From the NCBI GenBank assembly GCA_016789955.1, contig JAEUPB010000081.1:1-40016 (forward strand): DNA of 40,016 nt. Direction: 5' to 3'. The stretch is from Rubrivivax sp. GTDB taxonomy: Bacteria; Pseudomonadota; Gammaproteobacteria; Burkholderiales; Burkholderiaceae_C. The notes beneath the pieces were generated by a model. That model was not told where the DNA came from, made no database searches, and was given only the letters and a program-made list of their open reading frames with translations. Shown piece by piece: positions 4,068 through 39,838 of this stretch (position 1 is its first letter; every line of letters starts with the position of its first letter). The position numbers and the translations under genes were made by a program.

Positions 4068-4139
4068 GCGCGCTCATAAGGCAACCTCCGCGCTGGTCGC
4101 GCTCCGGTGTGAGCGCTTTGGAGCGGCCATGCGCGCTCA
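4028..4139. repeat. Tandem REP-like repeat, two copies, overlapping glpD 5' end
   Basis: Two copies of a 31-base unit at 4046-4076 and 4109-4139 differ at one base. They lie exactly 63 bases apart, and weaker similarity extends about 18 bases to the left of each. Each unit has inverted ends (TGAGCGC / GCGCTCA) that can form a hairpin with a 17-base loop. One copy begins at the stop codon of the SMP-30 gene and the other covers the longest possible glpD start. The unit resembles a dispersed palindromic element rather than coding sequence. Confidence 0.75.
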
Positions 4140-5060: not shown

Positions 5061-5935
5061 CCGCGCACCGCGCCGATCTCCAGGCGCATCCAGGCCTCCA
5101 CGCGCGCCGAGGGCGCCACGGTCGCGAGGCCATGCGCGGCGGGGTCGCTCATGTGGATCGCGTTGGCGACATGGCTCACCGGCTCGACGCAGAAGTACTC
5201 GCGCAGAGGTGGCGTGAACACCACGAGGTAGGGCAGCGACGAGGTCATGCGCAGCGACAACCGCTCGTCGCGGATGCGCGCGGCGCCGCCGCTGCCCTCG
5301 AAGCAGTGGTCGTAGTCGAGATGCGCCACGTCGGCGTCGATGCCGCTGTGCGGCACGTGGCGCGTCGGCAGCCCGGTAGGGTCGGTCTCCCAGCGCTCGC
5401 GCGACTCCACGTGCAGCCGGCTGCGCGGGCGCTTCGGGAAGTACGGGTGCCAGCCCAGGCCGATCGGCTGCGGGTGCGCCGCCGTGTTGGTCACCGTCAT
5501 GCGGCAGGTGAGCACGTCGGCGGTCAGCTCGAACTCCTGCTCGGCGCTGAAGGCGAAGGGCCAGTGCGCGTCGCCGGGATGGACCAGCGCGAGGGTGGCG
5601 GAGGTGGCGGTGCTGGCCGCGACCCGCCACGGCCGCTGCCACGCCACGCCATGCAGCGAATGCGGGCTGTCGTCGAAGTTCGGCTGCGTGGTGTGCTCGT
5701 GCCCCATCCAGCGGAAGCGCCGGTAGCCCAGGCGCCCGGAGTAGGGCACGAGCGGGAAGCAGGCCGACAGGCGCGACGACGCGAGCGCCGCGGGCTCCGA
5801 GCTGCGCATCACAGCCCACTCGTCGCGCCACAGGCCGGCGATCGAGCCGCCGAGGTCGGGACGCAAGGCCAGGCGCAGCGGGCCCGCGCGCAGGTCGACA
5901 GCGGGCGCGGCGGCATTCGGGGTGTCGGTGGTCAC
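5057..5935 (-). CDS. Aldose 1-epimerase (mutarotase) family protein
   Basis: Interconverts the alpha and beta anomers of a free sugar, here probably feeding the lactonase downstream. The 292-residue protein carries the early basic/aromatic signature HSLHGVAWQRPW, the catalytic histidine segment GLGWHPYF and the late glutamate segment YFCVEPVSHVANA. All fit the galactose-mutarotase fold. The start is GTG at 5935, overlapping the acetyltransferase stop by four bases (GTGA). The end overlaps the SMP-30 start in the same way. Family is certain; substrate is inferred only from context. Confidence 0.9.
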   Translation of the reverse strand: MTTDTPNAAAPAVDLRAGPLRLALRPDLGGSIAGLWRDEWAVMRSSEPAALASSRLSACFPLVPYSGRLGYRRFRWMGHEHTTQPNFDDSPHSLHGVAWQRPWRVAASTATSATLALVHPGDAHWPFAFSAEQEFELTADVLTCRMTVTNTAAHPQPIGLGWHPYFPKRPRSRLHVESRERWETDPTGLPTRHVPHSGIDADVAHLDYDHCFEGSGGAARIRDERLSLRMTSSLPYLVVFTPPLREYFCVEPVSHVANAIHMSDPAAHGLATVAPSARVEAWMRLEIGAVRG

Positions 5936-6426
5936 AGGTCGGCTTTCAGGTAATGCGCCCCGGGAACGGGGTTGTGGTAGTACGGCGGCACCTCGACGAA
6001 CCCGAGCGAGGCGTACATCTCGCGGGCGGCCTCCATGTCGTCGAGCGTGTCCAGCAGCAGCGTGGAATAGCCGGCCTGCGTGGCCGCGTCGATCAGCCGC
6101 TGCGCGATCTGCCGGCCCAGGCCCAGGCGCCGGAACGCGCGCCGCACGTACAGGCGCTTCATCTCGCAGGCATCGGGGTAGTCGACGTCGGGCAGCGGAC
6201 GCAACGCGCCGCAGCCGGCCAGCGCACCGTCGACGTAGGCCAGCAGCAGCGTGCCGCCCGGCGCGCGGTAGTCGCCCGGCAGCGCGGCCAGCTCGTCATC
6301 GAAGTTCTGGAAGCACAGGTCCACGCCGAGGCCGGCGGCGTACTCGCGGAAGATCTCGCGCGCGTCCTCCACCTGCTCGGGCACGGACGCGGTGACGATC
6401 TCGACGGTGGGCATGCGGCGGCTCAT
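5932..6426 (-). CDS. GNAT-family N-acetyltransferase
   Basis: A small acetyl-CoA-dependent transferase of about 160 residues. The acetyl-CoA pyrophosphate-binding loop is RRLGLGRQIAQRLI, preceded by the beta-strand CEMKRLYV. The C-terminal part LLLDTLDDMEAAREMYASLGFVEVP is the usual GNAT motif B. Two starts four codons apart (6426 and 6414) are possible and neither has a strong ribosome binding site. It is the first gene of a coupled run with the mutarotase and lactonase. The substrate cannot be inferred. Confidence 0.88.
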   Translation of the reverse strand: MSRRMPTVEIVTASVPEQVEDAREIFREYAAGLGVDLCFQNFDDELAALPGDYRAPGGTLLLAYVDGALAGCGALRPLPDVDYPDACEMKRLYVRRAFRRLGLGRQIAQRLIDAATQAGYSTLLLDTLDDMEAAREMYASLGFVEVPPYYHNPVPGAHYLKADL

Positions 6427-6427
6427 C

Positions 6428-6489
6428 AAGGTGATCCGGCTTTGCCGGTCACCTTGAACCCCCGCGGGGGGCGGGCTGGGCGCAGCCCG
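6428..6489. repeat. Intergenic cluster of three palindromes
   Basis: Three inverted repeats follow one another in the 97-base gap between the cytochrome b gene and the acetyltransferase. 6428-6455 has 12-13 base arms around TTT with one bulge. 6459-6470 is a perfect C5/G5-type palindrome. 6472-6489 has 6-base arms. There is no U-tract, so this is either a GC-rich terminator for the cytochrome b gene or a dispersed extragenic element. Confidence 0.65.
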
Positions 6490-6523
6490 GCCCTGGGGGC
6501 GCACGGCAGCCTGTGCCGATGCG

Positions 6524-7207
6524 TCACGGCGCCATCCGCATCACCCACACGGCCAGCGCCACCCCTGCGGCGGCCACGATCAGGGCGGTCACGCGGGCAC
6601 GCGTGTCGTCGGCGGCGGCCGGCGTGTCGGGCGGCAGCAGCTTGTCGCCGCTGACCATCGGGCCGATGAGGTCGGTGCGCTTGCCGTAGCGGTAGTAGAG
6701 GATGGCGCACACGTGCAGCAGGATCAGCGTGACGAGGATCCACTGCCCCCAGGTCTTGTGCCACGAGGTGGCGAGCAGCCCGGTCTCGGTGGCTACCAGC
6801 TTGTTCAGCGGGCCGATGTTGGCGATCTCGTCGTCGGACACGAGGCCGGTGCCCACCTGCACCGCGAGCAGCGTGATCAGCGCATACACCGAGAAGCTGC
6901 CCATCGGGTTGTGGCCGACCTCGAAGTGGTCGCCCGGCCGCACGTCGCCGCGCAGGTAGCGCAGCACCGTCCGCGGCGGATAGAAGAACGACGCGAAACG
7001 CGACCAGCGCCCGCCCACGAAGCCCCACACGATGCGGAACACCAGCAGCGCCAGCGCCAGGTAGCCGAGCCGGAAGTGCCAGGGCATCGCGTTGCCGCCG
7101 ATCTTCGCGGTGATCACCGACCCGATCACGCTCGCCGCGAGCAGCCAATGGAACACGCGGGTGGGCAGGTCCCAGACGCGAATGCGCTCGAGCGGAAGGT
7201 TCGACAT
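6524..7207 (-). CDS. Cytochrome b561-type membrane protein (cytochrome b/b6 domain)
   Basis: A 227-residue di-heme membrane cytochrome related to the cytochrome b subunits of Ni-Fe hydrogenase and formate dehydrogenase. It begins RIRVWDLPTRVFHWLLAASV, with the first heme histidine, then MPWHFRLGYLAL. Later helices carry SWHKTWGQWILVTLILLHVCAI with further heme histidines. A last hydrophobic helix closes the protein. It is divergent from a cytochrome c'-like gene, and a b-type/c-type pair of this kind usually moves electrons between the quinone pool and the periplasm. No hydrogenase genes are nearby, so the partner is probably the c-type cytochrome. Confidence 0.9.
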   Translation of the reverse strand: MSNLPLERIRVWDLPTRVFHWLLAASVIGSVITAKIGGNAMPWHFRLGYLALALLVFRIVWGFVGGRWSRFASFFYPPRTVLRYLRGDVRPGDHFEVGHNPMGSFSVYALITLLAVQVGTGLVSDDEIANIGPLNKLVATETGLLATSWHKTWGQWILVTLILLHVCAILYYRYGKRTDLIGPMVSGDKLLPPDTPAAADDTRARVTALIVAAAGVALAVWVMRMAP

Positions 7208-7375
7208 GCAGCGGCAACAGGCGTGGCGGCGACAATCGCAACCTTAACCGAGGCCCGGGGCACTCAACCACTGCCGGCGTCGCCTTCAGGATTTGTCCCG
7301 ATGTCGACGCGATCCGTTCGGCGTTTACGTATATTGCACCCCTTCCCGCATCCCCCCACCCCTGAGGAGCCCTGC

Positions 7376-7831
7376 ATGATTCGTCCGATGGTCGCCCTGA
7401 CCGCCCTGGTGGCTGCTGCCGCTGCCATGCCTGCCGCGGCACAGTTCCAGAAGCCCGAAGACGCGGTGAAGTACCGCCAGAGCGCCATGTTCCTGCTGGC
7501 GAACCACTTCGGCCGGGTCGGCGCGATGGTGCAGGGCCGCGTGCCCTACGACGCGGCAGCGGCGTCGGCCAATGCGGACATCGTTTCCACCATCTCGCAC
7601 CTGCCGTTCGCCGGCTTCGTCGACGGCACCGCCAGCACCGAAAAGGGCAAGGCCAAGGCCAGCATCTGGTCCGACCGCGCCAAGTTCGACGCCGCGGCGA
7701 AGAAGATGCAGGAAGAGACCGCGAAGCTGGCGGCCGCTGCCAAGACCAACAGCCTCGACAACCTGAAGGCGGCGTTCGGCCCCGTCGGCCAGACCTGCAA
7801 GGGCTGCCACGACGATTTCCGCAACCAGTGA
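7376..7831 (+). CDS. Cytochrome c'-like class II c-type cytochrome
   Basis: A 151-residue periplasmic mono-heme cytochrome. Signal peptide: MIRPMVALTALVAAAAAMPAAAQ. The mature part is helical and ends with the single heme site CKGCHDDFRNQ, the C-terminal placement typical of cytochrome c'. KYRQSAMFLLANHFGRVGAM fits the first helix of the family. The ATG at 7376 has a good ribosome binding site (GAGGAG, six bases upstream), which removes the longer upstream reading. Roles for the family include NO binding and electron transfer. A divergent cytochrome b lies 168 bases away. Confidence 0.92.
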   Translation: MIRPMVALTALVAAAAAMPAAAQFQKPEDAVKYRQSAMFLLANHFGRVGAMVQGRVPYDAAAASANADIVSTISHLPFAGFVDGTASTEKGKAKASIWSDRAKFDAAAKKMQEETAKLAAAAKTNSLDNLKAAFGPVGQTCKGCHDDFRNQ

Positions 7832-7874
7832 TCCTCCAGGCCCCCGCGCAATGCGGCGGCCATCCCGGATCGAC

Positions 7875-7901
7875 GACGAGGCGCCCGCGTGGCGCCTCGT
7901 C
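7875..7901. terminator. Bidirectional stem-loop terminator
   Basis: A perfect 11-base stem (GACGAGGCGCC / GGCGCCTCGTC) with a 5-base loop lies between the stop codons of two convergent genes (7831 and 7907). On the plus strand it is followed by CGCTTT, a short T-rich tail. Confidence 0.8.
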
Positions 7902-7906
7902 CGCTT

Positions 7907-8641
7907 TCAGGCCGGCGTCTCGGCGATCGCGGCGAACCCGAGCACCACGCGCCGCGTCATCGCCGACTTCTTCTCGAGCTTGGTGACGACCACGGCGCCG
8001 ATGTCCGCCGTGTTGCTGACGTGCGTGCCGCCGCAAGGCTGCAGGTCCACGCCCTCGATCTCGATCACGCGCACACGACCCAGGCCGCGCGGCGGCTGCA
8101 CGCTCATGCTGCGCACGAGGCCCGGGTTGGCGTCGAGCTCGGCTTCGCTGATCCAGCGGTGGCGCACCGGGCGCGCCTCGCGCACCAACCGCGCGAGGCC
8201 CTCGTTGAGCGCCTCCTTGTTCAGCGGCTCGTCGGTGTGGAAGTCCAGCCGCGCGTAGCCCTGCGTGATCGAGCAGCCGTTTACCGGATGCGGGATCAGC
8301 GCACACAGCAGGTGCGTCGCGGTGTGGAAGCGCCGATGGGCGCTGCGCCGCGCGACGTCGATGCGCGCGGTCACCGGCGTGCCGGGCGTGAACAAGGACA
8401 GGTCCGCGTCCGCCGCGGCCACGTGCACGATGCCGCCCGGATGCTCCTTGCTCTTGCGCGCGTCGACGATCGCGAGGTGTGCGCCGCCCGAGGCGACCAT
8501 CTCGCCGGCATCCCCGGCCTGCCCGCCGCCCAGCGGGTAGTACACCGTGCGGTCGAGGATCAGCCCACCCTCCGCGTGCGCGAGCACGGTGGCGGTGCAC
8601 TCGGCGAGGTCGGCATCCTCGCGGAACAGTTCGTCGGTCAT
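7907..8641 (-). CDS. AlaX-type alanyl-tRNA editing protein
   Basis: A free-standing homologue of the AlaRS editing domain (244 residues) expected to deacylate mischarged tRNA-Ala. The zinc/catalytic motifs are intact: HTATH within RRFHTATHLLCALI (HxxxH), and CGGTH within LQPCGGTHVSNTADIG (CxxxH). The N-terminal YYPLGGGQAGDAGEM is the family's Gly-rich segment. It starts ATG at 8641, overlapping the upstream VOC gene by four bases. It is last of six coupled genes devoted to amino-acid chemistry, which hints that the operon handles an amino acid that can be misloaded on tRNA-Ala. Confidence 0.92.
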   Translation of the reverse strand: MTDELFREDADLAECTATVLAHAEGGLILDRTVYYPLGGGQAGDAGEMVASGGAHLAIVDARKSKEHPGGIVHVAAADADLSLFTPGTPVTARIDVARRSAHRRFHTATHLLCALIPHPVNGCSITQGYARLDFHTDEPLNKEALNEGLARLVREARPVRHRWISEAELDANPGLVRSMSVQPPRGLGRVRVIEIEGVDLQPCGGTHVSNTADIGAVVVTKLEKKSAMTRRVVLGFAAIAETPA

Positions 8642-9291
8642 CGGGTCTCCAGCGTCACGCTGCCGAAGCCGGCAGCCCGGGGTCCGCGCAGCGTCGCGCG
8701 CAGCCCGGCAGCGCCGCGATGATGCACGCCCGGCGCGACCAGCAACGCCGCGGCCGCCGGCGGCAGCCCACCCACCTCGACCCGCTCGATGGACAGCACC
8801 GGCTCGCCCATGCGCAGCGTCGGGTGCTCGCCGCGCCAGGCGATCAGCGTCGGCAGCGCGCCGCGGCACTGCGGCCGGCCGTCGGCGCGCACGCTGATGG
8901 TCCACGCCAGCACGCCGTGCGGCGTGGGCCGGGTCGCCGCGGTGGGCGTGCCGGGGTCCAGGCCGAGGGCCGCGAGCGTGGCGCAGCGGGCGTCCAGGTC
9001 GTCGCAGCGCGCCACCCAGTGCACGAGCGACGGCGGCGCGGCCGGGTCGCGCTCGTCGAGCCCGAACCAGCGCGGATGCGTCGGGGCCGAGGCCTCGGGG
9101 TCGATCGCGATGATCTCGAGATAGGCCTGCGGGCAGGCCCCGCCCAGCGGCAGCAACCGGTTGTGCGTGCCCATCAGCAGATGCTTGCCTCCGGGGCCCG
9201 GTGTGACGCCGAAGGTCTGCTCGCACCAGCGCACGCCGTCCTCGAGCGTGGACGCCGCGACCACCAGGTGGTCGAGTTCGACGACGCTCAC
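8638..9291 (-). CDS. VOC-family (glyoxalase-like domain) protein
   Basis: A 217-residue protein opening VSVVELDHLVVAASTLEDGVRWCEQTFGVTPGPGGKHLLMGTHNRLL. This is the glyoxalase-like domain signature with its first metal-ligand histidine (LDHLV). YLEIIAIDPEA supplies the glutamate-containing strand and LVHWVARCDDLDA starts the second half. The start is GTG at 9291, overlapping the phzF stop by four bases, and the stop overlaps the AlaX start by four bases. The reaction is unknown: VOC proteins include lyases, dioxygenases and binding proteins. Confidence 0.85.
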   Translation of the reverse strand: MSVVELDHLVVAASTLEDGVRWCEQTFGVTPGPGGKHLLMGTHNRLLPLGGACPQAYLEIIAIDPEASAPTHPRWFGLDERDPAAPPSLVHWVARCDDLDARCATLAALGLDPGTPTAATRPTPHGVLAWTISVRADGRPQCRGALPTLIAWRGEHPTLRMGEPVLSIERVEVGGLPPAAAALLVAPGVHHRGAAGLRATLRGPRAAGFGSVTLETR

Positions 9292-21298: not shown

Positions 21299-22813
21299 CT
21301 ACTTCGAGTACGCCGTCTCGCCGTGCGACGTGATGTCCAGGCCCTCGCGTTCCTCTTCCTCGCCGACGCGCAGGCCGATCGTCAGGTCGACGATCTTGTA
21401 CGCGATGATGGAGACCACGCCCGACCACACCACCGTCACCAGCACCGCCTTCAGCTGCGTGATGAACTGGTCCATTACCGGCACCGAGCCCACCGCGGCG
21501 GTGACCCAGTCGGTCACCAGGCCCGGGCCGCCCAGCGCCTGGTTGTTGAAGATGCCGGTCAGCAGCGCGCCGACGATGCCGCCGACGCCGTGCACGCCGA
21601 ACACGTCCAGAGAGTCGTCGGCACCCAGGAGGCGCTTCAGACCGTTGACACCCCACAGGCAGGCGAAACCCGCCGCCGCGCCGATGATGAGCGCGCCGAC
21701 GATGCCGACGTTGCCGGCCGCCGGCGTGATCGCCACCAGCCCCGCCCCGGCACCCGAGGCCGCGCCCAGCATCGAGGCCTTGCCCTTCAGCATAGACTAG
21801 CCCAGGCACCACGCCAGCACTGCGGTGGCGGTGGCGGAGAAGGTGTTCAGGAAGGCCAGCGCCGCGCTGTTGCCCGCTTCGAGCGCCGAGCCGGCGTTGA
21901 AGCCGAACCAGCCCACCCACAGCAGCGAGGCACCGACCATCGTCAGCGTCAGGCTGTGCGGCGCCATCGACTCGCGGCCGTAGCCGATGCGCTTCTTGAC
22001 CATGTACGCACCCACGAGGCCGGCGACGGCCGCGTTGATGTGCACCACCGTGCCGCCGGCGAAGTCCAGCGCGCCCCATTGCCAGATCAGGCCGGCCTTG
22101 GCGTTCATCGCGTCGACCACTTCCTTGCCGGTGTAGGCGTCTGGGCCCATCCAGTACCACACCATGTGCGCGATCGGCGTGTAGCTGAAGGTGAACCACA
22201 GCGTCATGAACATCAGCACCGCCGAGAACTTGATGCGCTCGGCGAAGGCGCCGACGATCAGCCCGCAGGTGATGGCCGCGAAGGTGGCCTGGAACACGAC
22301 GAACACGATCTCGGGGATCACCACGCCCTTGCTGAACGTGGCGGCCATCGCGAACGTGCCCGCCGCGGGATCGAACACGCCCTTCAGGAACAGCCGGTCG
22401 AACCCGCCGATGAACGCGTTGCCTTCGGTGAACGCCAGGCTGTAGCCGTACACGACCCACAGCACCGTGATCAGCGAGAAGGTCACGAAGACCTGCATCA
22501 GCACCGACAGCATGTTCTTGCTGCGCACGAGGCCGCCGTAGAACAGCGCCAGGCCCGGGATCGACATCATGATCACGAGCAGCGTGGAGACGAGCATCCA
22601 GCTCACGTCGCCCTTGTTGGGCACGGGCGCGGCCGCGGCCGACGCCGCCTCGGAGGCCGGCGCCGCGGCAGGAGCCGCCGCGGCGGGCGCGGATGCAGGA
22701 GCAGCGGCCTCGGCGGCCGCGGAAGCCGCCGGTGCCGGCGACTGGGCCATCACGGCCCCCGCGAAGCCCAGGGCCGCAAGGCCCAGGGCGATCGTCGCGA
22801 TGAACTTTTTCAT
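21299..22813 (-). pseudogene. amtB: Ammonium transporter gene interrupted by an in-frame amber codon
   Basis: Full frame of 504 codons plus stop, encoding an Amt-family channel with a signal peptide and an Ala/Pro-rich leader (residues 1-70). The first part (338 residues) has IPGLALFYGGLVRSKN, VFQATFAAITCGLIVGAFAERIKF and the first twin histidine in TVVHINAAVAGLVGAYM. A TAG at 21797-21799 then follows AVLAWCLG. The rest (164 residues) continues in the same frame with SMLKGKASMLGAASGAGAGL and FGVHGVGGIVGALLTGIF, holding the second histidine. One base change (GAG to TAG) would explain it. The next codon, TCT, is unusual for this GC-rich gene. An ATG directly after TAG-TCT could allow re-initiation. 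Alternatives: true pseudogene, split expression or sequencing error. Confidence 0.85.
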
Positions 22814-22844: not shown

Positions 22845-23946
<1,102 letters not shown>

Positions 23947-24166: not shown

Positions 24167-26710
24167 CTACAGCGTGAGCTGCAGGGACACGCCGACGAGG
24201 GTCGCGCGGTAGCCGCCGGGCCCGGCGTCGAGGTAGACGCGGTTGCCCACCACCGTGCCCGCGTCGAGGCCGGTGGCGTGCCAGTCGGTGATGCGAACCG
24301 TCTCGCGGCGCAGGAACAGGCGCAGTGCCACGTCGGGCGTCACCGGCATGCGCAGCGCCATGTCGAACACCCGCCACTCGTAGGCGATGTCCGCGAAGCC
24401 GGTGCCCGACTGCGCAGCCAGCGACGGGCTCTGCAGCGCGTCGGCCGAGGCGTAGTCGTAGGCCAGCGGCGAGCGTGACTTCACGCGCGCGGCCTGTAGT
24501 TCCAGCCGCGGCCGGCCGAAGTCGTGCCGCAGCCCGAGCCCCATCGACGTCGTGCGCTCGCCCGACTGCGCACCCCAGGCCAGCGCGGCCGGGTAGATGC
24601 TGCGTGGCACGCCGAAGGCGTTGGAGCAGCTCGGCGGCAACGACAGGCAGCCCGCGGCGGCCGCGCTGCCGAGGTCGGCGGCATCGGCCTGCTGCATGCG
24701 CGCCGTCTGCCGCGACAGGTGCGCGTGGACCGCCGTGGTCGTGGCTGGCAGCCAGCCCGCGTCGAGGTTCACCGAGCGCTGCGACTGCGTGCCGACGCGG
24801 CCGAACTCGGCAGGGTAGTCGGCGAGGCGCGCCTGCAGCGAGAGGCCGAGGTCGAGGTCGGGCCGCGGCAGCCAGCCCACGCGTGCACGCAGTGTCTGCT
24901 GGCGACGGTCGGCGAGGTCGAACTTGCGCAGCTCCTCGAGGTTGTGCAGCTGTTCGAGCAGCGTCGACGTGGTCACCCGGTAGCCCGGCAGCGTCTCGGT
25001 GTAGAAGTCGCGGTAGGGGTTGCTGACGTAGTCGCTGCCGCGCCGGTCGGCGTGCTCGTACGAGCCCTGCAGCGTCAGCGACTCGAAGCCGCGGTCGCTG
25101 TAGCTCAGGCGCAGCCGGTCCTCGCGCGTCCGCTCGCGCTCGCGCCAGGCGCGGTGCACGTCCTCGCGCTCTACCTCGGCCGCGACCATCGCGCGCCGCA
25201 TGCGCCACTCACCCGACACCCGCGCCAGATCCTGCGAGCCCTCGAACGGGATGCTGCGGTAGTGGATGTCGTTGGTGCCGGTGTAGATGCGGCTCGGGTT
25301 GGTGTCCTGGATGATGTAGCCGTACAGCCCGGCGAGCGGGTTGTAGGCGGTGTACGCGGTGTGGTTGCGCGTCTCGCGGCGGCGCAGCGTGGCGCGCACG
25401 GTGAGCCGGTCGAGCGGGCTCAGCGCAAGGCCGAGGTCGACCAGGCGCGTGTCGATACGGGCATCGGCGCGCTCGCGGCTGAGCGCCGCGGTGGTGTTCC
25501 ACAGGTCGTAGTTGCCGTTGAAGGCATTGCCGAAGGGCGCGCCGGTGCCGCTGGTGAGCGTCGGCGGGATCAGGCGGTCGTTCTGCCGCTGGCTCGACAC
25601 GTCGACCACGGCCGTGAAGCGCGCGCGCCACGGCGACGCCACCACCTGAGCGAACTCGACCTTGGCCTGATAGGCCTCGTTGTCGGGCACGAGGTCCATG
25701 CGGCCGCCGGCGAGGTTCAGCGCGCCCGAGGGGTGGCGGAACGGGTTCTGCCAGGTCAGCGTGTCGATGGCGTTGCGGAAGAGCGAGGCGGCCAGCGCCA
25801 CGTTGAGCTGCGTGGTGCCGTCGGCGTACTGCACGCCGGCGCGCAGCTCGTGCGTGTGGTGGTCGATCGGCTCCACGGTCTCGCCGTTGCCTTCGTTGGC
25901 GCCGAAGGCGCGCGCACCGCGTCGGCGCTCGAGCGAGTAGCTGCCGTTCAGCGTCCAGCCGTCGGCCAGCGTGAGATCGAGGCGCGCCGAGCCGGTGCGG
26001 CGCACCACGGCCAGTTCGGTCGGCGGCATCGAGCGGATCAGCGCCTGCACCGCGGCGGCGTTGGCCGCGTTGTTGGCACTGGCGCCGCCCGCCGCCACGC
26101 CGGGGGCCGTCGGCAGCGTCAGCATGCCGGTGCCCACGCCCAGCCACATCGCCTGCGCGCCGGCGGCGCTGACGTGCGGCGTCTCGTCGTACCGCAGCGA
26201 CACGCGCCAGTCGTTGTAGCGGCCGAACTGCACGCCCACGTAGGCATCGCGCCGGCCGAGGCCGCCGCCGCTCACCTCGACGTAGCGCGCATCGCCGGGC
26301 GACTGCGCCTGCAGCTCGAAGCGCTCGATCACCGGGCCGTTGTCGACATCGCGGTAGGTGCGCAGCAGCGTCTCGCGGCGCCCACCGTCGCTGCCGCCGA
26401 GCACGCCGATCTGCAGGAATCCGCCGACTTCCCAGCCCGCCACGCGGTTGCCGGGCTCCGGCAGCGCGTACGGCACGTCGTAGAGGCGGCCCCACGGCGA
26501 GCGCGAGGCGGGCTGCCGGTAGGGGCTGAGGCCGACGGGGTCGCGGTCGCCGGTGCCGGTGGCGGGCGGCGCCGGGTTCAGCCCGTTGCCGCCGGTGACG
26601 GGCCACACCAGCGAGGAGTCGGCACGCGCCGCGCCCGCCGCCAGGCACAAGCCCGCGGCCACCGCTGCGAGCGCAGGCGGCCGGGGGCGAGGGCGGATCG
26701 GGCGAGTCAC
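24167..26710 (-). CDS. MtrB/PioB-family decaheme-associated outer-membrane porin
   Basis: Large beta-barrel (847 residues from the GTG at 26710) that sheathes a multiheme cytochrome so electrons can cross the outer membrane. The signal peptide is the run ALAAVAAGLCLAAGAARA after an Arg/Pro-rich start. The body has many amphipathic strands with Tyr/Arg/Trp pairs (RYNDWRVSLRYDETPH, NGSYSLERRRGARAFGANEG). It ends YRATLVGVSLQLTL. The N-terminal CXXC of Shewanella MtrB is absent; the mature protein has only two cysteines, in GCLSLPPSC. The start lies four bases after the decaheme stop. A longer frame to 26767 would overlap the upstream gene by 53 bases and is less likely. Direction of electron flow is unknown. 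Confidence 0.9.
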   Translation of the reverse strand: MTRPIRPRPRPPALAAVAAGLCLAAGAARADSSLVWPVTGGNGLNPAPPATGTGDRDPVGLSPYRQPASRSPWGRLYDVPYALPEPGNRVAGWEVGGFLQIGVLGGSDGGRRETLLRTYRDVDNGPVIERFELQAQSPGDARYVEVSGGGLGRRDAYVGVQFGRYNDWRVSLRYDETPHVSAAGAQAMWLGVGTGMLTLPTAPGVAAGGASANNAANAAAVQALIRSMPPTELAVVRRTGSARLDLTLADGWTLNGSYSLERRRGARAFGANEGNGETVEPIDHHTHELRAGVQYADGTTQLNVALAASLFRNAIDTLTWQNPFRHPSGALNLAGGRMDLVPDNEAYQAKVEFAQVVASPWRARFTAVVDVSSQRQNDRLIPPTLTSGTGAPFGNAFNGNYDLWNTTAALSRERADARIDTRLVDLGLALSPLDRLTVRATLRRRETRNHTAYTAYNPLAGLYGYIIQDTNPSRIYTGTNDIHYRSIPFEGSQDLARVSGEWRMRRAMVAAEVEREDVHRAWRERERTREDRLRLSYSDRGFESLTLQGSYEHADRRGSDYVSNPYRDFYTETLPGYRVTTSTLLEQLHNLEELRKFDLADRRQQTLRARVGWLPRPDLDLGLSLQARLADYPAEFGRVGTQSQRSVNLDAGWLPATTTAVHAHLSRQTARMQQADAADLGSAAAAGCLSLPPSCSNAFGVPRSIYPAALAWGAQSGERTTSMGLGLRHDFGRPRLELQAARVKSRSPLAYDYASADALQSPSLAAQSGTGFADIAYEWRVFDMALRMPVTPDVALRLFLRRETVRITDWHATGLDAGTVVGNRVYLDAGPGGYRATLVGVSLQLTL

Positions 26711-26714
26711 GCCA

Positions 26715-27653
26715 TCACCGCAGGAAGCGCACGCCGGCGGGGTGATTGCTGCCGTGGATCTGCGCATGGCAGGTTTGGCAACTGCGCCCGATCAGCCAGG
26801 TGCTCGGGTCGCCGCCGTTGGCCTGGTTGACCGTCGTCACCAGCTTGTTCTGGTGCGTGCGGTTGGTGTGGCACTGCTGGCACAGGAAGGGCCGCGGCGC
26901 CACCAGCAACATCTCGTGGTTCGAGCCGTGCGACTCGTGGCAGTTCATGCAGTTCTCGCGCACCGGCGCGTGTTCCCACAGGTACGGCCCGCGCTTCTCG
27001 GCATGGCACGACGCGCACAGCTCGTTGACCGAGTTGGTCTTCAGCAAGGGCCGCGTGGCCGATCCGTGCGGGTTGTGGCAGCTGCCGCACGACATCTTGC
27101 CCTCCGGCAGCGGCATGTGCGACCGCTTGCGGAACTCGGCGCGCTGCTGGGCGTGGCAGGTGTAGCAGGTCTCGGACACGCCGGCAGTGCGCAGCAGGCC
27201 GGACTCGGAGTAGCGCGCCATCGGGTTGTGGCAATCGCTGCAGGCCACCTCGGCCGACGCGTGCGCCGAACCAGGCCAGAAGATGCGTTGGCGACCCTGG
27301 TGGCACTCGAGGCACTGCGCGTTCTGCCTGGCCACCGGCGTGCCCCAGCGGCGCGTGTAGCCGATCAGCAGCTCTCGGTTGGCGGTGTCGGCCACGTGGG
27401 CCGAGCCCGGCCCGTGGCAGGCCTCGCACAGCTGGCGTTCGCGCTCGTTGCGCGGGTTCTGGCGGAACGTGCGCGCGTGCAGCGTGTGGCCGAAGTGCCG
27501 CGCCTCGAACACGTGGCAGCGGATGCACACGGCCTCGCCCACGTAGCTCGCCTCGGCGGCCTGCACGGTGGATGGCAGCACCACGCCCAGCCAGGCGGAC
27601 CATGCCAGCGCGGCCGCGGCCAGGCCGCGCCGGCAGAGCTGCCGCAAGCTCAC
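26715..27653 (-). CDS. DmsE/MtrA-family decaheme c-type cytochrome
   Basis: A 312-residue secreted cytochrome with a signal peptide (cleaved near STVQA-AEASY) and exactly ten CXXCH sites: CIRCH, CEACH, CLECH, CSDCH, CYTCH, CGSCH, CASCH, CMNCH, CQQCH, CQTCH. The count and spacing match MtrA, MtoA and DmsE, which form a heme wire inside the MtrB-type porin. It starts at GTG 27653, four bases after the CHRD gene stop, and ends four bases before the porin start. No outer-surface decaheme (MtrC) or HiPIP (PioC) gene is in the window, so the set resembles the MtoAB/PioAB layout. Confidence 0.95.
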   Translation of the reverse strand: MSLRQLCRRGLAAAALAWSAWLGVVLPSTVQAAEASYVGEAVCIRCHVFEARHFGHTLHARTFRQNPRNERERQLCEACHGPGSAHVADTANRELLIGYTRRWGTPVARQNAQCLECHQGRQRIFWPGSAHASAEVACSDCHNPMARYSESGLLRTAGVSETCYTCHAQQRAEFRKRSHMPLPEGKMSCGSCHNPHGSATRPLLKTNSVNELCASCHAEKRGPYLWEHAPVRENCMNCHESHGSNHEMLLVAPRPFLCQQCHTNRTHQNKLVTTVNQANGGDPSTWLIGRSCQTCHAQIHGSNHPAGVRFLR

Positions 27654-27657
27654 GCGC

Positions 27658-28257
27658 TCAGCGCAGCGGCGTGGCGCCGGAGAGGCGGAAGGTGAAGGCC
27701 GCGTCGTTCTGGAACGCGAGCTCGGCGTTGTACGACGCCGTCGGGCCTGCGAGGCCCGGCGTCAGCACCACCGGCAGCGTGAGCTTGCCGTTGGCGAACG
27801 TGGGCAGCACCAGGGTGCTGGAGTTCTCGATCAGTTGCGCGCGCATCTCGCCGCCGCCGGCCAGCGTGCTGTGGATGTTGAAGTACCACCGGCCGGCGAG
27901 CAGGTCGGCCTCCTGTGCGGCCGTGAGCGTGACGATGCCGGTGAGCTTGCCGGCGTTGCCGGTGGGCTGCGTCGGCAGCCCGATCTGCACGCCGGCGTTG
28001 GCGCCCAGCAGCGCCGGGCCGTGGAAGTGCGCGGCGGTGGCGGTGGCACCCGGGTTCAGCTGGTAGACGATGCTGTAGATCATCACCTTGGTGCCGGAGT
28101 CGTACAGCGCGGTGACGCTGCCGGTGCCGACGCTGGCCGGCGCGACCGGCTCCTGCGTGGGCGTCAGCGGCAGGGCGACGTAGGCGTAGATCTCGGCCGA
28201 GGCGGCGACGGGCAGCGCCAGAGCGGCGACGGCGAACAGACGGGTGATCGGGGACAT
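27658..28257 (-). CDS. Secreted CHRD-domain protein
   Basis: A 199-residue protein with a signal peptide (MSPITRLFAVAALALPVAASA). One CHRD domain (about residues 20-145) is marked by TATAAHFHGPALLGANAGVQIGLP and GRWYFNIHSTLAGGGEMRAQLIE. A C-terminal extension of about 50 residues is beta-rich. AGGAG lies seven bases before the ATG. CHRD domains occur in chordin and in many bacterial exported proteins, and their bacterial function is unknown. Its stop is four bases from the decaheme start, so it is almost certainly co-expressed with the conduit. The two conserved His segments could bind metal, which is speculation. Confidence 0.88.
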   Translation of the reverse strand: MSPITRLFAVAALALPVAASAEIYAYVALPLTPTQEPVAPASVGTGSVTALYDSGTKVMIYSIVYQLNPGATATAAHFHGPALLGANAGVQIGLPTQPTGNAGKLTGIVTLTAAQEADLLAGRWYFNIHSTLAGGGEMRAQLIENSSTLVLPTFANGKLTLPVVLTPGLAGPTASYNAELAFQNDAAFTFRLSGATPLR

Positions 28258-28387
28258 GCGGAATCTCCTGGCGGCGAGGGGTTGGCATCGAGGAACCCGG
28301 CAACACGGGCTGTCGGGCTCCACGGCCCCGGGCGTCCCACGAAGCCGTGAGTGCCGGCTTGTGCTCGGGGTGGTTGCCCGCCACGTC

Positions 28388-28423
28388 GCCGGGTCGGGTT
28401 TGTCTGATCCGTAGCGACCCGGC
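28388..28423. terminator. Inverted repeat between the DUF3570-type and CHRD genes
   Basis: GCCGGGTCG and CGACCCGGC form perfect 9-base arms around an 18-base loop, just after the stop of the gene ending at 28433 and within the 175-base gap to the CHRD gene. No U-tract. It could attenuate transcription or separate two transcripts. I see no strong promoter in the rest of the gap. Confidence 0.35.
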
Positions 28424-28432
28424 TCCGGCGCT

Positions 28433-30946
28433 TCACAACGCCCGGCCGATCGCGAGCACCCACCGCGTGCGGGGCTCGGGCTGCACGCCGCGCACCCAGC
28501 TGCGCAGCGGCTGCACGGCCTCGACCGACAGCGTGCCCGCACTGCCCGTCATCGACACGCCCACGCCCAGCTCGACATGGCGGCCGCCGTGGTTGGCCGG
28601 GTCGTCCGGCGACGACAGCACCGCCGGCGCGGCGGTGCGCTCGCCCACCACGCCCGGCTCCACGCGCCACGCGCCACGCACGGTGGCTGCGAGGCCGCTG
28701 CCCGCCGCCCAGCCCAGCCAACCGGTCACCTGTCCGCCCGGGCCCCAGGCGTAGCCGTCGCGGTTGCGGGCCTGCAGGCGCAGCGCGGCAGTGGCCTGGG
28801 CGCCCCAGCTCAGCGTCCCCGCGACGCGCTGCAACGTGACGCTGGGCAGCAGGTCCCAGGTGCCGGTGCCGGTCTGCATCGCGTAGTCCATCGCGGTCCC
28901 GTCCTGCTGGTGCACGCGCCGGTGCGCGAGCGTCGTGTGCCCGGTCGGGATGCCGAGGCCCAGGCCCCAGCGCCACAGCGCGGCCCCACCCGGTGCGGGC
29001 CGCCAGAACAGGTGGACCTGCGTGTCGCCGAGCGCGCCGCTCTCATGGCTGCCCAGGTGCACCGGCGCGTGGCCGGCATCGGTGCCGGGCACCAGCGCGC
29101 TGTCCATCGCGGTGACGCGGTACTGCAGCGCCACGAGCAGCGCCCGCCGGGCGTCGAGGCGGACCAGCACGTCGACCGTCTGCAGTTGCTGCGCCGTGCC
29201 GGTGGGCATCGCGCCGCACGGGTCGCCGCAGGCACGGGCCGCGGCGTCGGCCGGGTTCAGCGTCCGGCTGCCGGCCTGCAGCGCACCGCCGCTGCGCGAC
29301 CGCTGCTGCCGGTAGCCGAGGCGCCACTCGCCGGGGGCCGGCCACGCGAGGGCCGGCAGCAGGTCCGCGGGAACGCCCGCCTCGTCTGCCCGTGTCGACC
29401 TGGTGATCCCACTGGACGGCATCGCCGGCACCTGGCCCGCACGCGGCTCGAGATCGATCTTCAGGCTCGCCTGGATCACCCGGTAGCGCACGTCGGCGTA
29501 GCGGCCGTCGCCGTTGCCGCCCCAAGCGTAGCGACCCGACTGCAGCGAGGTGTCGATCGACACGTCGAGCTGCGCCCCGCGGCCCAGCCGAGCGGTCCAG
29601 CCCAAGCCCGCGGTGAGCACGCCGTAGGCGCCCAGCCGGTTGTCGCTGGCGTAGTGGGTCGGCAGCAAAGCCGGGTCGTAGCCGGTCAGCACGAACTGCC
29701 CGTCGGGCCCGATCGAGATCTGCCGGTAGGCCTGCCGCGACACGAGGTAGGGCACGTAGAAGCGCGCCGCCTGCTGCGAGTAGCCGCGCAGCCGTGCGCT
29801 GAACAGCGCGTCGCCGGCGAGCGGCAACCACCACTCCAGCTCCGCCCGCCGCGCGCGCACGCCCCAGTCGTCGCCCGAGGCGCCGAGGCCGATGTGCCAG
29901 GCCGCATCCGAGGCACCCTGCTGCAGCACCAGCTTGCCGTCGGCGCCCCATTGCCGGCGCCGCGCGGGGCGCTGCTCGAGCAGCGCGCGCAGGTCGCCGT
30001 CGCGCACGCCGTCGCCGCCGCCCGGCGCCGCGAAGATCACGCTGGTCGCCTTGTACGGGTTGCCGAGGTAGCCGCGGCTGCCCGAGCCCGAGAGCGATGC
30101 CGACAGCAGCGCGCCCGGCCCCAGCACCTGCGTGGCTGATGCCGTGGCACCCCAGTCGTCGCGGCGGCCGGTGAGCACCTGCTGGCCGTCGCGGGCCTCG
30201 ATCTGCGACGCGTAGGCGGTGCGCGTGAGGTAGGGCACCGCATCGTGGTCCAGCGCGGCGGCGATCGTGCTGCGCGTGGCGCTCAGGCCGAGCATGACGG
30301 TGGTGCCGCCGCGGTCGATGCGGCCGGCGAGGTTGACGAAGCGCGAGTGGAAGTCGCGCTCCAGCGACACGCCGCCGCCCAGCGCGATCGAGCCGCCGTC
30401 CAAGCGCCGCGTGAGCTTGAGGTCGAGCTGCTGTCGCGTCTCGGGCGACGCGCTGGACATCGTGTGCACGAGGTCGGGCATGTCGCGCAGGCGGCCGCTC
30501 GCCGGATCGCGTAGCACCGGGCGGTCGGCGGCGTCGAGCAGCAGGTGGCCGTTGAGCATCGGCGACGCCCCGGAGAAGACCAGCCCGTCGGGGCCTGGCC
30601 GCGGCACCGCGCGGTTGCCCCCGGCGATCACCGGCGCGGTGGACACCGGCGTCGCGCCCGACCAGGTGTCCTGCGCGTAGCCGAGGTCGAGCCGGTCGCG
30701 GCCCTGCGCGCCGAGCGTCACGCGCAGCGTGCGGGTGTCGACGGCCAGCGGCTGCCCGTGCCCCCCGGCGATGCCGGTCGGCCGCGGCGACTCGCGGTAG
30801 CGCGACGCCTGCAGCGATGCCGCGTCCTCCGCCTCCTGGGCCCGCGCGGCGGTGCCGGTGACGCCGGGCAGCAGCAGCGCCGCGGCGACGATCGCGTCGA
30901 GTGCGGCGGCCCCGGCGGCGCCCGGACCCTCAGTACGAACAGCCAC
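28433..30946 (-). CDS. DUF3570-type outer-membrane protein, probably fused to a second beta-barrel
   Basis: An 837-residue exported protein whose signal sequence ends near TGTAARA. The N-terminal half (about 35-470) resembles DUF3570: ASRYRESPRP, then DTRTLRVTLGAQGRDRLDLGYAQDTWSGATPV, SSASPETRQQLDLKLTRR and RFYVPYLVSRQAYRQ, a strand-rich barrel. The second half (about 540-837) looks like a separate transporter/porin-like barrel (LGDTQVHLFWRP, GLGLGIPTGHT, WDLLPSVTLQRVAGTLSWGAQ). The size is about twice that of a typical DUF3570 protein. The start is unsure: the frame opens at 31003, but GTG at 30946 leaves only a 17-base overlap with the DUF4266 gene. Function unknown. A porin or cofactor-related outer-membrane role is inferred from the neighbours. 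Confidence 0.8.
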   Translation of the reverse strand: MAVRTEGPGAAGAAALDAIVAAALLLPGVTGTAARAQEAEDAASLQASRYRESPRPTGIAGGHGQPLAVDTRTLRVTLGAQGRDRLDLGYAQDTWSGATPVSTAPVIAGGNRAVPRPGPDGLVFSGASPMLNGHLLLDAADRPVLRDPASGRLRDMPDLVHTMSSASPETRQQLDLKLTRRLDGGSIALGGGVSLERDFHSRFVNLAGRIDRGGTTVMLGLSATRSTIAAALDHDAVPYLTRTAYASQIEARDGQQVLTGRRDDWGATASATQVLGPGALLSASLSGSGSRGYLGNPYKATSVIFAAPGGGDGVRDGDLRALLEQRPARRRQWGADGKLVLQQGASDAAWHIGLGASGDDWGVRARRAELEWWLPLAGDALFSARLRGYSQQAARFYVPYLVSRQAYRQISIGPDGQFVLTGYDPALLPTHYASDNRLGAYGVLTAGLGWTARLGRGAQLDVSIDTSLQSGRYAWGGNGDGRYADVRYRVIQASLKIDLEPRAGQVPAMPSSGITRSTRADEAGVPADLLPALAWPAPGEWRLGYRQQRSRSGGALQAGSRTLNPADAAARACGDPCGAMPTGTAQQLQTVDVLVRLDARRALLVALQYRVTAMDSALVPGTDAGHAPVHLGSHESGALGDTQVHLFWRPAPGGAALWRWGLGLGIPTGHTTLAHRRVHQQDGTAMDYAMQTGTGTWDLLPSVTLQRVAGTLSWGAQATAALRLQARNRDGYAWGPGGQVTGWLGWAAGSGLAATVRGAWRVEPGVVGERTAAPAVLSSPDDPANHGGRHVELGVGVSMTGSAGTLSVEAVQPLRSWVRGVQPEPRTRWVLAIGRAL

Positions 30947-31172
30947 ACCCGCCGCCCTCGGCGCGCGACGCCGACACCGCCGCCTCGCGGCTGGCCTGCA
31001 CATGCGAGCGCAGCGCGCTGCGCAAGGGCGAGGGCTCGAGGGCCATCTGCGGGCGTGCGAGCACGTCGCGCTCCCAGGGCGCCACGGCCGTGCAGCCCAT
31101 CGTAGCCAGGCCGGCGACGACGGCCACGAAGCCGCGCAGCGATCGGATCGACAGGGTGCAGACGGTGCTCAC
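30930..31172 (-). CDS. DUF4266-type small lipoprotein
   Basis: About 80 residues from a GTG at 31172. A short hydrophobic segment ends in a lipobox-like LATMGC. The DUF4266 core is CTAVAPWERDVLARPQMAL, followed by a helical segment (LRSHVQASREAAV) and the characteristic Gly/Cys tail GGGCGCSY. DUF4266 genes are typically found immediately upstream of DUF3570 genes, as here, often with a thioredoxin-like gene and an ApbE flavin transferase. Those two are not adjacent in this window. The start is weakly supported (no clear ribosome binding site). Too small for confident automated calling, but the tail and context make it convincing. Confidence 0.78.
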   Translation of the reverse strand: MSTVCTLSIRSLRGFVAVVAGLATMGCTAVAPWERDVLARPQMALEPSPLRSALRSHVQASREAAVSASRAEGGGCGCSY

Positions 31173-31366
31173 GAAACGTGAGTGCCCGCCGGGCTCATGC
31201 CGGCTGCCACGCCGGGGATGTCCGCCGCTCCGGGCTCGTCGCACAACCCGCACATCCCCCGCGAGGGGGTGGTCCGCGACCCACGCACCCACCCCTGCGC
31301 TGGATGGCCGCGGAAGCAGCGCTGCGAAGAATCGGGCGCGGTTCCCACCTGTCCCGGAGCACCGCG

Positions 31367-32905
31367 ATGTCGCTGGCCGTCGTCCACAGCCGAGCCCTCG
31401 AAGGGCTGCACGCCCCCCGCGTGAGGGTCGAAGTGCACCTGGCGCGCGGGCTGCCGGCGTTCACCTTGGTGGGCCTGGCCGACACCGAGGTCAAGGAAGC
31501 CCGCGAGCGCGTGCGCGCGGCGCTGCTGACCAGCGGGTTGCCGTTCCCACACGACCGGCGCATCACGGTGAACCTCGCGCCGGCCGACCTGCCCAAGGAC
31601 TCGGGCCGTTACGACCTGCCGATCGCACTGGGCATCCTGGCCGCGGCCGGCGAGATCGACGCGGCGCGGCTGGAGACGCACGAGTTCGCCGGCGAACTGT
31701 CGCTGGCCGGCGAACTGAAGCCGGTGCGCGGAGCGCTCGCGCTGGCCCTGGCGCTGCGCAGCGAAGGCTCGGCACGCACGTTAGTGCTGCCGCGGCCGAG
31801 CGCGGAGGCGGCGGCACAGGTGGCGGGCATCGACGTGCGCGGGCCTGTGCACCTGGCCGAAGTGGTCGCGGCGCTGCGGCCGGCCGAGCCCGAGGCGCCG
31901 CTGCCCGATCTCGCGCGGGTGCCGCCCCCGCCGCCGCCGGCACCGGTGCCCGTTCGCCTCGACCTGGCCGACGTGCGCGGGCAGGCGGCCGCCAAGCGCG
32001 CGCTGGAGATCGCCGCGGCCGGGCAGCACAGCCTGCTGATGGTCGGCCCGCCGGGCAGCGGCAAGTCGATGCTGGCCGAGCGGCTGCCGACCCTGCTGCC
32101 GCCGATGACCGACGACGAGGCGCTGTCCAGCGCGGCGCTGCTCGGCCTGTCGTCGGCCACGCTCGACGGCGGCGCGTTCGGCCAGCGGCCGTTCCGCGCG
32201 CCGCACCACACGGCCAGCGCCGCGGCGCTGGTGGGCGGGGGTTCGCCGCCGCGCCCGGGCGAGATCTCGCTGGCGCATGGCGGCGTGCTGTTCCTCGACG
32301 AGCTGCCCGAGTTCCCGCGCATGGCGCTGGAGGCGCTGCGCGAGCCGCTGGAGACCGGCGCGATCACGCTCTCGCGCGCCGCACGGCAGGCCACCTACCC
32401 CGCCCGCTTCCTGCTGGTGGCCGCGATGAACCCCTGCCCCTGCGGCCAGCTGGGTGCCGCCACCGGCGCGGGCTGCCGCTGCACCCCCGACCAGGTGGAG
32501 CGCTACCGGGCGCGCCTCTCGGGCCCGCTGCTGGACCGGATCGACCTGCAGATCGAGCTGCCCGCGGTGCCCCCCTCCGAGCTGCTGGCCGACCGCCCCG
32601 CGGCTGCCGAACCCGGCACGGCGGTGGCCGCCCGCGTGGCGGCCGCGCGCCGGCGGCAGCAGCAGCGGCAGGGCCGGGCCAACGGGCTGCTCGATGCCGC
32701 CGGCATCGACGCCCAGGTCGCGCTCGACGACCACGCCCGCGCGTTCGCGCGCGCCGCGGCCGAGCGGCTGGGCTGGTCGGCACGGCGGCTGCACCGCACG
32801 CTGCGCGTGGCGCGCACCATCGCCGACCTCGCGGCGTCGGCAGCGGTGCACCCGTCGCACATGGCCGAGGCGCTGCAGCTGCAACGGCTGCTGGCGTCGA
32901 ACTGA
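31367..32905 (+). CDS. comM: ComM/YifB-family AAA+ ATPase
   Basis: Magnesium-chelatase-like helicase that promotes branch migration during natural transformation. 512 residues. The N-terminal Lon-protease-like fold has the family block GLPAFTLVGLADTEVKEARERVRAAL. The AAA+ domain has Walker A VGPPGSGKSML (about 225-236) and Walker B GGVLFLDELPEF. MNPCPCGQLG with GCRCTPDQVERYRARLSGPLLDRIDL includes the cysteine cluster. GGAG lies seven bases before the ATG. It diverges from the DUF4266 gene across 194 bases that contain a C5-GCGA-G5 hairpin (31256-31269). Confidence 0.95.
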   Translation: MSLAVVHSRALEGLHAPRVRVEVHLARGLPAFTLVGLADTEVKEARERVRAALLTSGLPFPHDRRITVNLAPADLPKDSGRYDLPIALGILAAAGEIDAARLETHEFAGELSLAGELKPVRGALALALALRSEGSARTLVLPRPSAEAAAQVAGIDVRGPVHLAEVVAALRPAEPEAPLPDLARVPPPPPPAPVPVRLDLADVRGQAAAKRALEIAAAGQHSLLMVGPPGSGKSMLAERLPTLLPPMTDDEALSSAALLGLSSATLDGGAFGQRPFRAPHHTASAAALVGGGSPPRPGEISLAHGGVLFLDELPEFPRMALEALREPLETGAITLSRAARQATYPARFLLVAAMNPCPCGQLGAATGAGCRCTPDQVERYRARLSGPLLDRIDLQIELPAVPPSELLADRPAAAEPGTAVAARVAAARRRQQQRQGRANGLLDAAGIDAQVALDDHARAFARAAAERLGWSARRLHRTLRVARTIADLAASAAVHPSHMAEALQLQRLLASN

Positions 32906-39222: not shown

Positions 39223-39438
39223 ATGCGGACCAACATCGTGCTCGACGAACAGCTCGTGAAGCAGGCGCTGGAGCTCTCGGGTGCCCGCACGAAGCGCGAG
39301 GTCGTCGACCTGGCGCTGCGCCAGATGGTGGCGCGGCACCGTCAGCGGGAACTGAAGGCGCTGGTGGGCCGCGACCTCATCGCACCGGAGTACGACGTGC
39401 GCGCCGTGCGGCGCTCCATGAAACGTGGTGCTGGTTGA
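39223..39438 (+). CDS. vapB: VapB-family antitoxin (ribbon-helix-helix)
   Basis: A 71-residue antitoxin. The N-terminal [39 protein letters not shown] is the DUF2191/VapB ribbon-helix-helix DNA-binding unit. The C-terminal tail ([26 protein letters not shown]) would wrap the toxin. GGAGGTG lies six bases before the ATG at 39223, which excludes the GTG three codons upstream. Its end overlaps the toxin start by 14 bases. The pair lies on the strand opposite to metH and between its two halves. Confidence 0.92.
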
Positions 39439-39815
39439 CACCGGCGTCTGGATCGACTGGTTGCGGCAGGTGCCCTCGCCGCAGACCACGGCGCTGGGCG
39501 CACTGCTCGACGACGGAGACGCCTGCCTCGCACCGGTGATCTTCCAGGAACTGCTGCAGGGTGCCCGCACTCCCGCGGCGCTGCAGACGCTGCGTCGGCG
39601 CTTCGGGGCGTTGCCGATGTTGCTCGGAAGCGATCCGACGCACACCCACCGGCGCGCCGGCGAGCTCTACGCGCGCGCCCGCTGGCAAGGCATCACGCCG
39701 CGCAGCCCGCACGACTGCCTGATCGTCGCCACGGCGGTCGAGCATCGTGTGCCGCTGCTGCACGGCGACCGGGACTTCGACGCGCTGGCCCGCATCGAGC
39801 CGGCACTGACTCTCT

Positions 39816-39838
<23 letters not shown>
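39425..39838 (+). CDS. vapC: VapC-family toxin (PIN-domain ribonuclease)
   Basis: A 137-residue PIN-domain endoribonuclease. Acidic active-site residues appear in order: [11 protein letters not shown] (Asp near the N-terminus), [12 protein letters not shown] (Glu), [27 protein letters not shown] (two Asp positions). The frame opens with two consecutive GTG codons (39425 or 39428) inside the end of vapB, so the two are coupled. The last 23 bases overlap the 3' end of the convergent metH first-half gene. Probable targets are tRNA or rRNA, as for the family. Confidence 0.92.

Follow-up and report, generated by a model that had tools for sequence, protein, structure and literature searches.

The window analysed here is a stretch of 40,016 nucleotides (nt) from Rubrivivax sp. 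(assembly GCA_016789955.1, contig JAEUPB010000081.1). Its minus strand holds a block of about 7 kb with five genes, i.e., in order of transcription, those for a DUF4266 lipoprotein, a long DUF3570 protein, a CHRD-domain protein, a cytochrome with ten CXXCH motifs and an MtrB/PioB-type barrel. We are concerned with this block and with the relation of its MtrAB-type electron conduit, i.e., the cytochrome and the barrel, to the DUF3570/DUF4266 pair. The five genes are as follows (E-values in brackets; aa, amino acids).

30930..31172, minus strand: DUF4266 lipoprotein, 80 aa (PF14086 1.1e-18), with lipobox LATMGC (by eye) and a C-terminal CxC
28433..30946, minus strand: long DUF3570 protein, 837 aa (PF12094 1.3e-60, residues 36-507 of an 856-aa frame, i.e., the N-terminal half only)
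27658..28257, minus strand: exported CHRD-domain protein, 199 aa, start by gene call (PF07452 3.3e-16)
26715..27653, minus strand: MtrA/DmsE-type decaheme cytochrome c, 10 CXXCH (TIGR03508 1.1e-75; PDB 6r2q_A 2.6e-62)
24167..26710, minus strand: MtrB/PioB-type outer-membrane barrel, GTG start taken at 26710, gene call starting at 26662 (PF11854 4.7e-85; PDB 6r2q_B 1.1e-8)

Signal sequences are visible by eye in all five proteins. CHRD and cytochrome genes as well as cytochrome and MtrB genes are four bases apart, while the gap from DUF3570 to CHRD measures 175 bases. By gene call, the end of DUF4266 and the start of DUF3570 have 17 nt in common, and the same overlap is found in a paralogous locus on contig C29 of the own genome bin. 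A first-pass annotation, made from the letters of the window, had described five exported genes on one strand with these four-base and 175-base gaps, all of which is borne out by gene calls and domain matches.

That annotation had also taken the cytochrome/barrel pair for MtrAB, which the profile searches corroborate. With its 10 CXXCH motifs, the cytochrome belongs to the MtrA/DmsE family (TIGR03508, 254.5 bits at a cut-off of 192.2), and the adjacent gene encodes an MtrB/PioB barrel (PF11854, 286.9 bits at a cut-off of 23); under the narrower TIGR03509 the barrel scores 214.5 bits, i.e., below the cut-off of 240.05. Both proteins align to PDB 6r2q, which we take to be the Shewanella MtrABC complex, namely the cytochrome with residues 33-308 of its 312 to chain A and MtrB over about 200 residues to chain B. 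Also as described before, no gene for an MtrC/OmcA-type outer-surface decaheme cytochrome was found in the window, i.e., the locus does not qualify as MtrCAB. In other parts of the own bin, three weak matches to the MtrC/MtrF domain were obtained (best 1.6e-4), one of which passes the cut-off only when summed over the frame.

Within a cytochrome tree of 37 rows, the window MtrA falls inside a clade of 11 rows with 100/100 support. In nine of the ten other rows of this clade, MtrB is followed by two small c-type cytochromes, one such gene having a single CXXCH by call; they are Cytochrom_C proteins in L135, the sole locus scanned for identity. The tenth row, L132, has the MtrA-MtrB pair alone. 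By heme count, none of the ten rows shows a large multiheme gene beside MtrA, and a large ten-heme gene is near MtrA in 19 of the 26 rows outside the clade (MtrC/MtrF-like in L148, the sole one scanned). Two small periplasmic cytochromes were also reported by the mto operon of a Gallionellaceae bacterium, where they are hypothesised to be carriers (PMC5566968; here and below, cited papers stand for their available text). That is, neither MtrC nor the pair of small cytochromes accompanies the window conduit, and DUF3570/DUF4266 are present in their stead. This suggests that one redox module was substituted by another.

Two further observations were made in the congener and related regions. In L136 (G001:C242, 975-2045), an ApbE-family gene with 33% identity to the ApbE from contig C29 lies 1.3 kb upstream of an MtrAB of the window type; it is the only ApbE match in 40 MtrB regions (see below) and might point to flavinylation in the vicinity of such an MtrAB. 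In L143 (G012:C158, 6915-10718), one open frame of 1267 aa covers both MtrB and a decaheme-type cytochrome (9 CXXCH by call); it may be a genuine fusion or stem from an error in the sequence.

With regard to the DUF3570/DUF4266 pair, we found a single paper, PMC8238504, that treats either family. It reports that ApbE attaches flavin to a DUF3570 protein of Chlorobium luteolum at two [S/T]GA[S/T] motifs, and it names DUF4266, whose C-terminus carries a CxC, and a thioredoxin-like gene as usual neighbours, to which DsbD is added in one cluster set; the role of the gene set is called uncertain. The window pair shows both hallmarks, since its DUF3570 protein carries [ST]GA[ST] at both sites (SGATP and SGASP) and its DUF4266 protein ends in GGGCGCSY. 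The relevant parts of the DUF3570 gene are the following.

30647..30670, minus strand: predicted flavin site 1, DTWSGATP, residues 93-100
30560..30574, minus strand: predicted flavin site 2, SGASP, residues 125-129
29366..29461, minus strand: inter-domain linker, residues 496-527, His-rich in relatives and free of His in the window copy
29090..29209, minus strand: residues 580-619, which hold most of the Met ladder of the relatives, lost in the window copy

Three ApbE genes are found elsewhere in the bin. One of them directly follows a sister DUF3570 on contig C29, where DUF4266 and DUF3570 (58-59% identical to the window copy) are followed by ApbE and then by a PCuAC copper chaperone gene. 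In a tree of 22 long proteins, hand-picked from 82, the window and C29 copies are paired with 100/100 support, and Ideonella sp. A 288 is their neighbour; PMC8805035 lists Ideonella sp. A288 as an MtrCAB-encoding strain that was reported to deposit iron oxides. Among the 59 congeners searched with the window protein, 38 give no match and 21 give weak matches to short stretches (best 2.3e-11), i.e., the long form was not seen there. A profile search of genome contigs with the single window protein confirmed no relative. We define the set of relatives by a profile search of genome contigs with alignment A1, taking the best 80 of at least 561 confirmed relatives plus the C29 copy, i.e., 81 proteins. 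One of them, L214, is an incomplete translation and provides no data for ladder, linker or site 2. To judge by their record titles, 63 of the best 80 are of Nitrosomonas type (36) or methane-oxidiser type (27). Strict site 1 is kept in 78 of the 81 relatives, and GA[ST] is present at both sites in all but L214 (80/81).

The C-terminal half of the window protein (about 340 residues) matches no Pfam family. A Phenol_MetA_deg match (8.8e-5) was obtained for this half in L168, the nearest named relative and one of five relatives scanned; the other four gave none. A search of solved structures with the DUF3570 alignment yielded FapF as best hit with E 0.072, which we do not count as a match. Together with the finding that the C. 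luteolum protein was in the pellet on expression (PMC8238504), the L168 match suggests by analogy that the DUF3570 protein is probably located in the outer membrane. In a plasmid collection, DUF3570 had no match at 1e-5, and the cytochrome had one distant match at 1e-30, on a Photobacterium record.

A further feature of the window DUF3570 is a loss. Eleven Met positions in the C-terminal half form a ladder that is complete in 72 of the 80 relatives with data, while six have ten and two have nine of these residues; the window copy retains 1/11. Likewise, the linker between the halves contains 4-11 His in the same 80 relatives and 0 in the window. For the long DUF3570 family, the conserved Met ladder and His linker suggest metal handling, as judged from residue make-up. 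Long DUF3570 proteins with ladder and His-rich linker (L168-L247) are common in Nitrosomonas and methane oxidisers, i.e., in users of copper monooxygenases. That the metal is copper we infer from the Met/His make-up, the taxa retrieved and the one PCuAC gene after the sister's ApbE. The PCuAC query gave no match in the DNA available around the best 80 relatives, so PCuAC is not a feature of the cluster.

We also compared the location of the block with that of its flanking genes in other genomes. The flanks are:

23206..23946, minus strand: TorF-type porin (TIGR02001 1.2e-45)
31367..32905, plus strand: YifB/ComM ATPase (TIGR00368 2.2e-161)

TorF and YifB are 7.4 kb apart in the window, and exactly the five genes lie between them, in accordance with their earlier treatment as one block. 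A YifB query matched in 79 of 81 genomes (own included), and 30 loci were returned and read. In 28 of the 29 other congener loci, YifB is directly beside TorF (16) or GlnK (12), the exception being L325; in L333, gshA stands at that place beside YifB (by eye). Since exactly five genes separate neighbours that are usually adjacent, the data support that they moved together by one insertion or one rearrangement. At the block ends, we found no direct repeat longer than chance (8 nt, reached by 449/487 random pairs); short flanks were compared, with no search for mobile elements.

The data show what the five genes encode, that they form one block flanked by YifB and TorF, that both flavin motifs are present while Met ladder and linker His have disappeared, and that a paralogue lies beside ApbE. 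On this basis, we propose that the MtrAB conduit is functionally coupled to a flavin-carrying DUF3570 protein and a thiol lipoprotein of the DUF4266 family, and we give this coupling a probability slightly below even. In such a system, ApbE made elsewhere in the cell would attach two flavin mononucleotides to DUF3570, which would be freed of metal binding and still pass electrons, with DUF4266 as its lipoprotein thiol partner. Electrons would pass, in one direction or the other, between the flavins and the ten hemes of the MtrA-type cytochrome enclosed by MtrB, at one MtrB face. DUF3570 would thereby take the place of the two small c-type cytochromes of the sister MtrAB clusters or of MtrC in the others. 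Flavinylation in this organism, the barrel fold of DUF3570 and its electrical contact with MtrAB are steps that we infer. The most specific form of the proposal, i.e., a hybrid heme-flavin outer-membrane conduit in which a two-flavin DUF3570 barrel lost its Met/His ligands after duplication and partners MtrAB in place of MtrC or small cytochrome carriers, is rather unlikely to hold in full.

The CHRD protein is the weakest part of the proposed coupling. It is exported and encoded four bases before the cytochrome, and it might serve substrate or surface binding; nothing in the analysis pointed to a role for it. Of 81 congeners (own included), 39 have CHRD, and apart from the window none of the places listed is on the same contig as an MtrB. 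Among solved structures, its best hits are antibody light chains with E 0.13 and worse, which were not counted. The first-pass annotation had assigned both CHRD and DUF3570/DUF4266 to electron transfer along the conduit. For DUF3570/DUF4266 this gains support from the ApbE flavinylation reported in PMC8238504 and the presence of both motifs; for CHRD it does not. The predicted flavin chemistry of DUF3570 is an addition to the earlier reading, of which the observations are confirmed and the interpretation is partly supported.

A number of results weigh against the coupling. Within the block, the 175-base gap between DUF3570 and CHRD parts the two halves, and neither a recognised terminator nor a promoter-like site was detected in it. 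No ApbE gene is present on the window contig, i.e., the same-cluster ApbE of the flavinylated systems is missing. The published motif is not general either, because [ST]GA[ST] at both sites is found in only 25 of the 81 relatives; most long relatives deviate from the strict S/T that opens site 2, while the window copy has it. Furthermore, a shared regulator for both halves had to be rejected as a candidate. It was based on two leader elements of doubtful significance, both ordinary by control:

28336..28353, minus strand: CACTCACG-NN-TTCGTGGG, before CHRD
31168..31184, minus strand: CACTCACG-N-TTCGTGAG, over the DUF4266 start

The pattern CACTCACGN{1,2}TTCGTGRG, chosen after seeing both sites, has only two occurrences in the own genome, namely these two leader regions. 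A local alignment as high was reached by 699/3827 upstream pairs and 1276/4956 random segments, which is no better than chance. A looser form of the palindrome was met once in 44 loci scanned (L141), far from MtrAB.

The neighbourhood surveys point in the same direction. Here, window and C29 proteins were used as tblastn queries, so distant relatives may escape. Around the best 80 named DUF3570 relatives, DUF4266 is found in 77 and ApbE in 64 cases (several contigs end early); of the two exported genes known from the C29 cluster, one is found in 72 and the other in 66. MtrB, decaheme cytochrome and CHRD are found in 0/80 within the DNA available. MtrB is present in 35 of 81 congeners (own included). 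We collected 39 MtrB regions from 33 of the 34 other MtrB-bearing congeners plus one of another genus (L166), i.e., 40 regions, five of which are shorter than 10 kb; the set excludes G004, whose MtrB sits at the end of a contig, another piece of G034 as well as three weak matches. These regions contain MtrB in 40 and the decaheme cytochrome in 38 cases, and none shows DUF3570 (long or short), DUF4266 or CHRD. The earlier expectation of a recurring CHRD-MtrAB-DUF3570 cluster is thus not supported, as related genomes keep MtrAB without these genes (0/33 other MtrB-bearing congeners inspected). An order-wide sample (300 genomes, own included) has PF12094 in 32 and PF11854 in 35 genomes (30 over the cut-off), and in the three other genomes with both families they are at least 0.8 Mb apart. 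A class-wide sample (274 genomes) has PF12094 in 71 and PF11854 in 32 (24 over the cut-off), and 18 other genomes with both carry them on different contigs, except for one weak match about 0.7 Mb off. That is, MtrB and DUF3570 are close together in no genome of the two samples but the own one, where fragmented genomes could hide adjacency; the co-occurrence that had been anticipated did not emerge. The five-gene arrangement is known from one bin only, and the block is unusual by its uniqueness among the genomes examined, not by recurrence.

These surveys provide the basis of the strongest alternative, i.e., that DUF4266-DUF3570 and CHRD-MtrA-MtrB are two independent units that share one insertion site, with DUF3570 doing its own extracytosolic redox work and never meeting MtrAB. 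Both halves occur alone elsewhere, the 175-base gap lies between them, and genomes with both families keep them apart. On the other hand, independent units do not readily explain that five same-strand genes exactly fill an interval between neighbours of 28/29 congener loci, that the window DUF3570 is without its usual partners, and that the metal features are lost only in this copy. We consider this alternative plausible at a probability clearly below even.

A second alternative regards the window DUF3570 as a relic duplicate, unflavinylated without its ApbE and drifting, such that the lost Met and His reflect decay. The copy indeed has neither ApbE nor the two usual exported neighbours, nor the thioredoxin-like gene that is visible by eye in L187 and L195, and of the 211 positions on which at least 90% of relatives agree it departs at 64. 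However, its frame is open over 837 codons, the other 147 positions and both flavin motifs are kept, and the sister copy is changed at 72 by a nearly identical way of counting, i.e., the window copy is not decaying faster. Since the metal-type residues were lost while the flavin sites are kept, the window DUF3570 is not simply decaying, and we deem the relic improbable.

The last alternative is an assembly or binning artefact in which the contig joins pieces of two organisms, such that the neighbourhood exists nowhere. The own bin comprises 116 contigs, is 79.6% complete and has a contamination of 2. Also weighing against the coupling, AmtB-GlnK-TorF-YifB is found once more on its contig C92 (L329, G000:C92:78000-90000), there with no block inserted; the YifB of that locus is 66% identical to that of the window (blastp) and sits on a different branch of a weakly resolved tree. 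The region may have been duplicated or the bin may be mixed; given the two loci, the C29 ApbE may belong to another organism. In the window, an in-frame TAG at 21797-21799 divides an amtB-like frame (21299-22813, minus strand) into pieces of 338 and 164 aa, by a true change or a sequence error, and a second such frame (440 aa by gene call) is on C92. Moreover, block and remaining window agree in tetranucleotide profile at 0.88, which is at the bottom of the range for other 7-kb pieces (0.88-0.93). An artefact is nevertheless very improbable, because G+C is even over block and flanks apart from a dip at TorF-GlnK, the block ends between and not inside genes, its DUF3570 pairs 100/100 with a copy on another contig of the bin, and its profile is nearer to own-bin pieces (C29, C3, C92 and C70 1-20000: 0.88-0.89; the two immediate flanks: 0.80 and 0.86) than to eight pieces from other organisms (0.73-0.85).

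The own bin contains further candidates for electron transfer. L331 (G000:C40:80000-88957, 2591-8958) has adjacent genes with 27 and 53 CXXCH, the second running off the contig end; such very large multiheme cytochromes might form a further electron-transfer system. In L330 (G000:C92:28000-40000, 5259-7916), an 885-aa protein with 11 CXXCH is encoded close to three small genes that have 3 CXXCH apiece. In the window itself, two short overlapping genes at 39223-39838 (plus strand) resemble a VapBC-type toxin-antitoxin pair by eye.

MtrAB conduits without an outer-surface cytochrome raise the question of their electron partner. Flavin proteins and cytochromes stand in for each other in related respiratory systems (PMC8238504). 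If the proposed coupling is true, a partner with covalent flavin would mean that cytochrome and flavin modules also swap in a wire across the outer membrane, which would extend this modularity. The long DUF3570 family gains a testable feature, i.e., a conserved Met ladder and His linker, along with a natural variant that loses both and keeps its flavin sites.

Finally, we relate the block to known systems. With the ApbE-DUF3570-DUF4266-thioredoxin-like clusters (PMC8238504) it shares the order DUF4266 then DUF3570, both flavin motifs and the CxC end of DUF4266, but ApbE and the other cluster genes are missing, Met ladder and linker His have disappeared, and MtrAB is present; the available main text of that paper does not mention MtrB. 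With the MtrAB, MtoAB and PioAB conduits (PMC5566968, PMC4245776, PMC8805035) it shares the adjacent genes for decaheme cytochrome and MtrB-type barrel, and clusters without MtrC are already known from MtoAB and PioAB. In contrast to these, it includes the DUF3570/DUF4266 pair and CHRD, with no further cytochrome or PioC-like gene recognised in the block. The congener clusters L131, L133-L137 and L139-L141 have their MtrA in the same 100/100 clade, a long MtrB and no adjoining large multiheme gene as well; theirs are the two small cytochrome genes after MtrB instead of CHRD, DUF3570 and DUF4266. Regarding its location, the block resembles mtrCAB loci, which often interrupt otherwise syntenic regions (PMC8805035), as it does between YifB and TorF.

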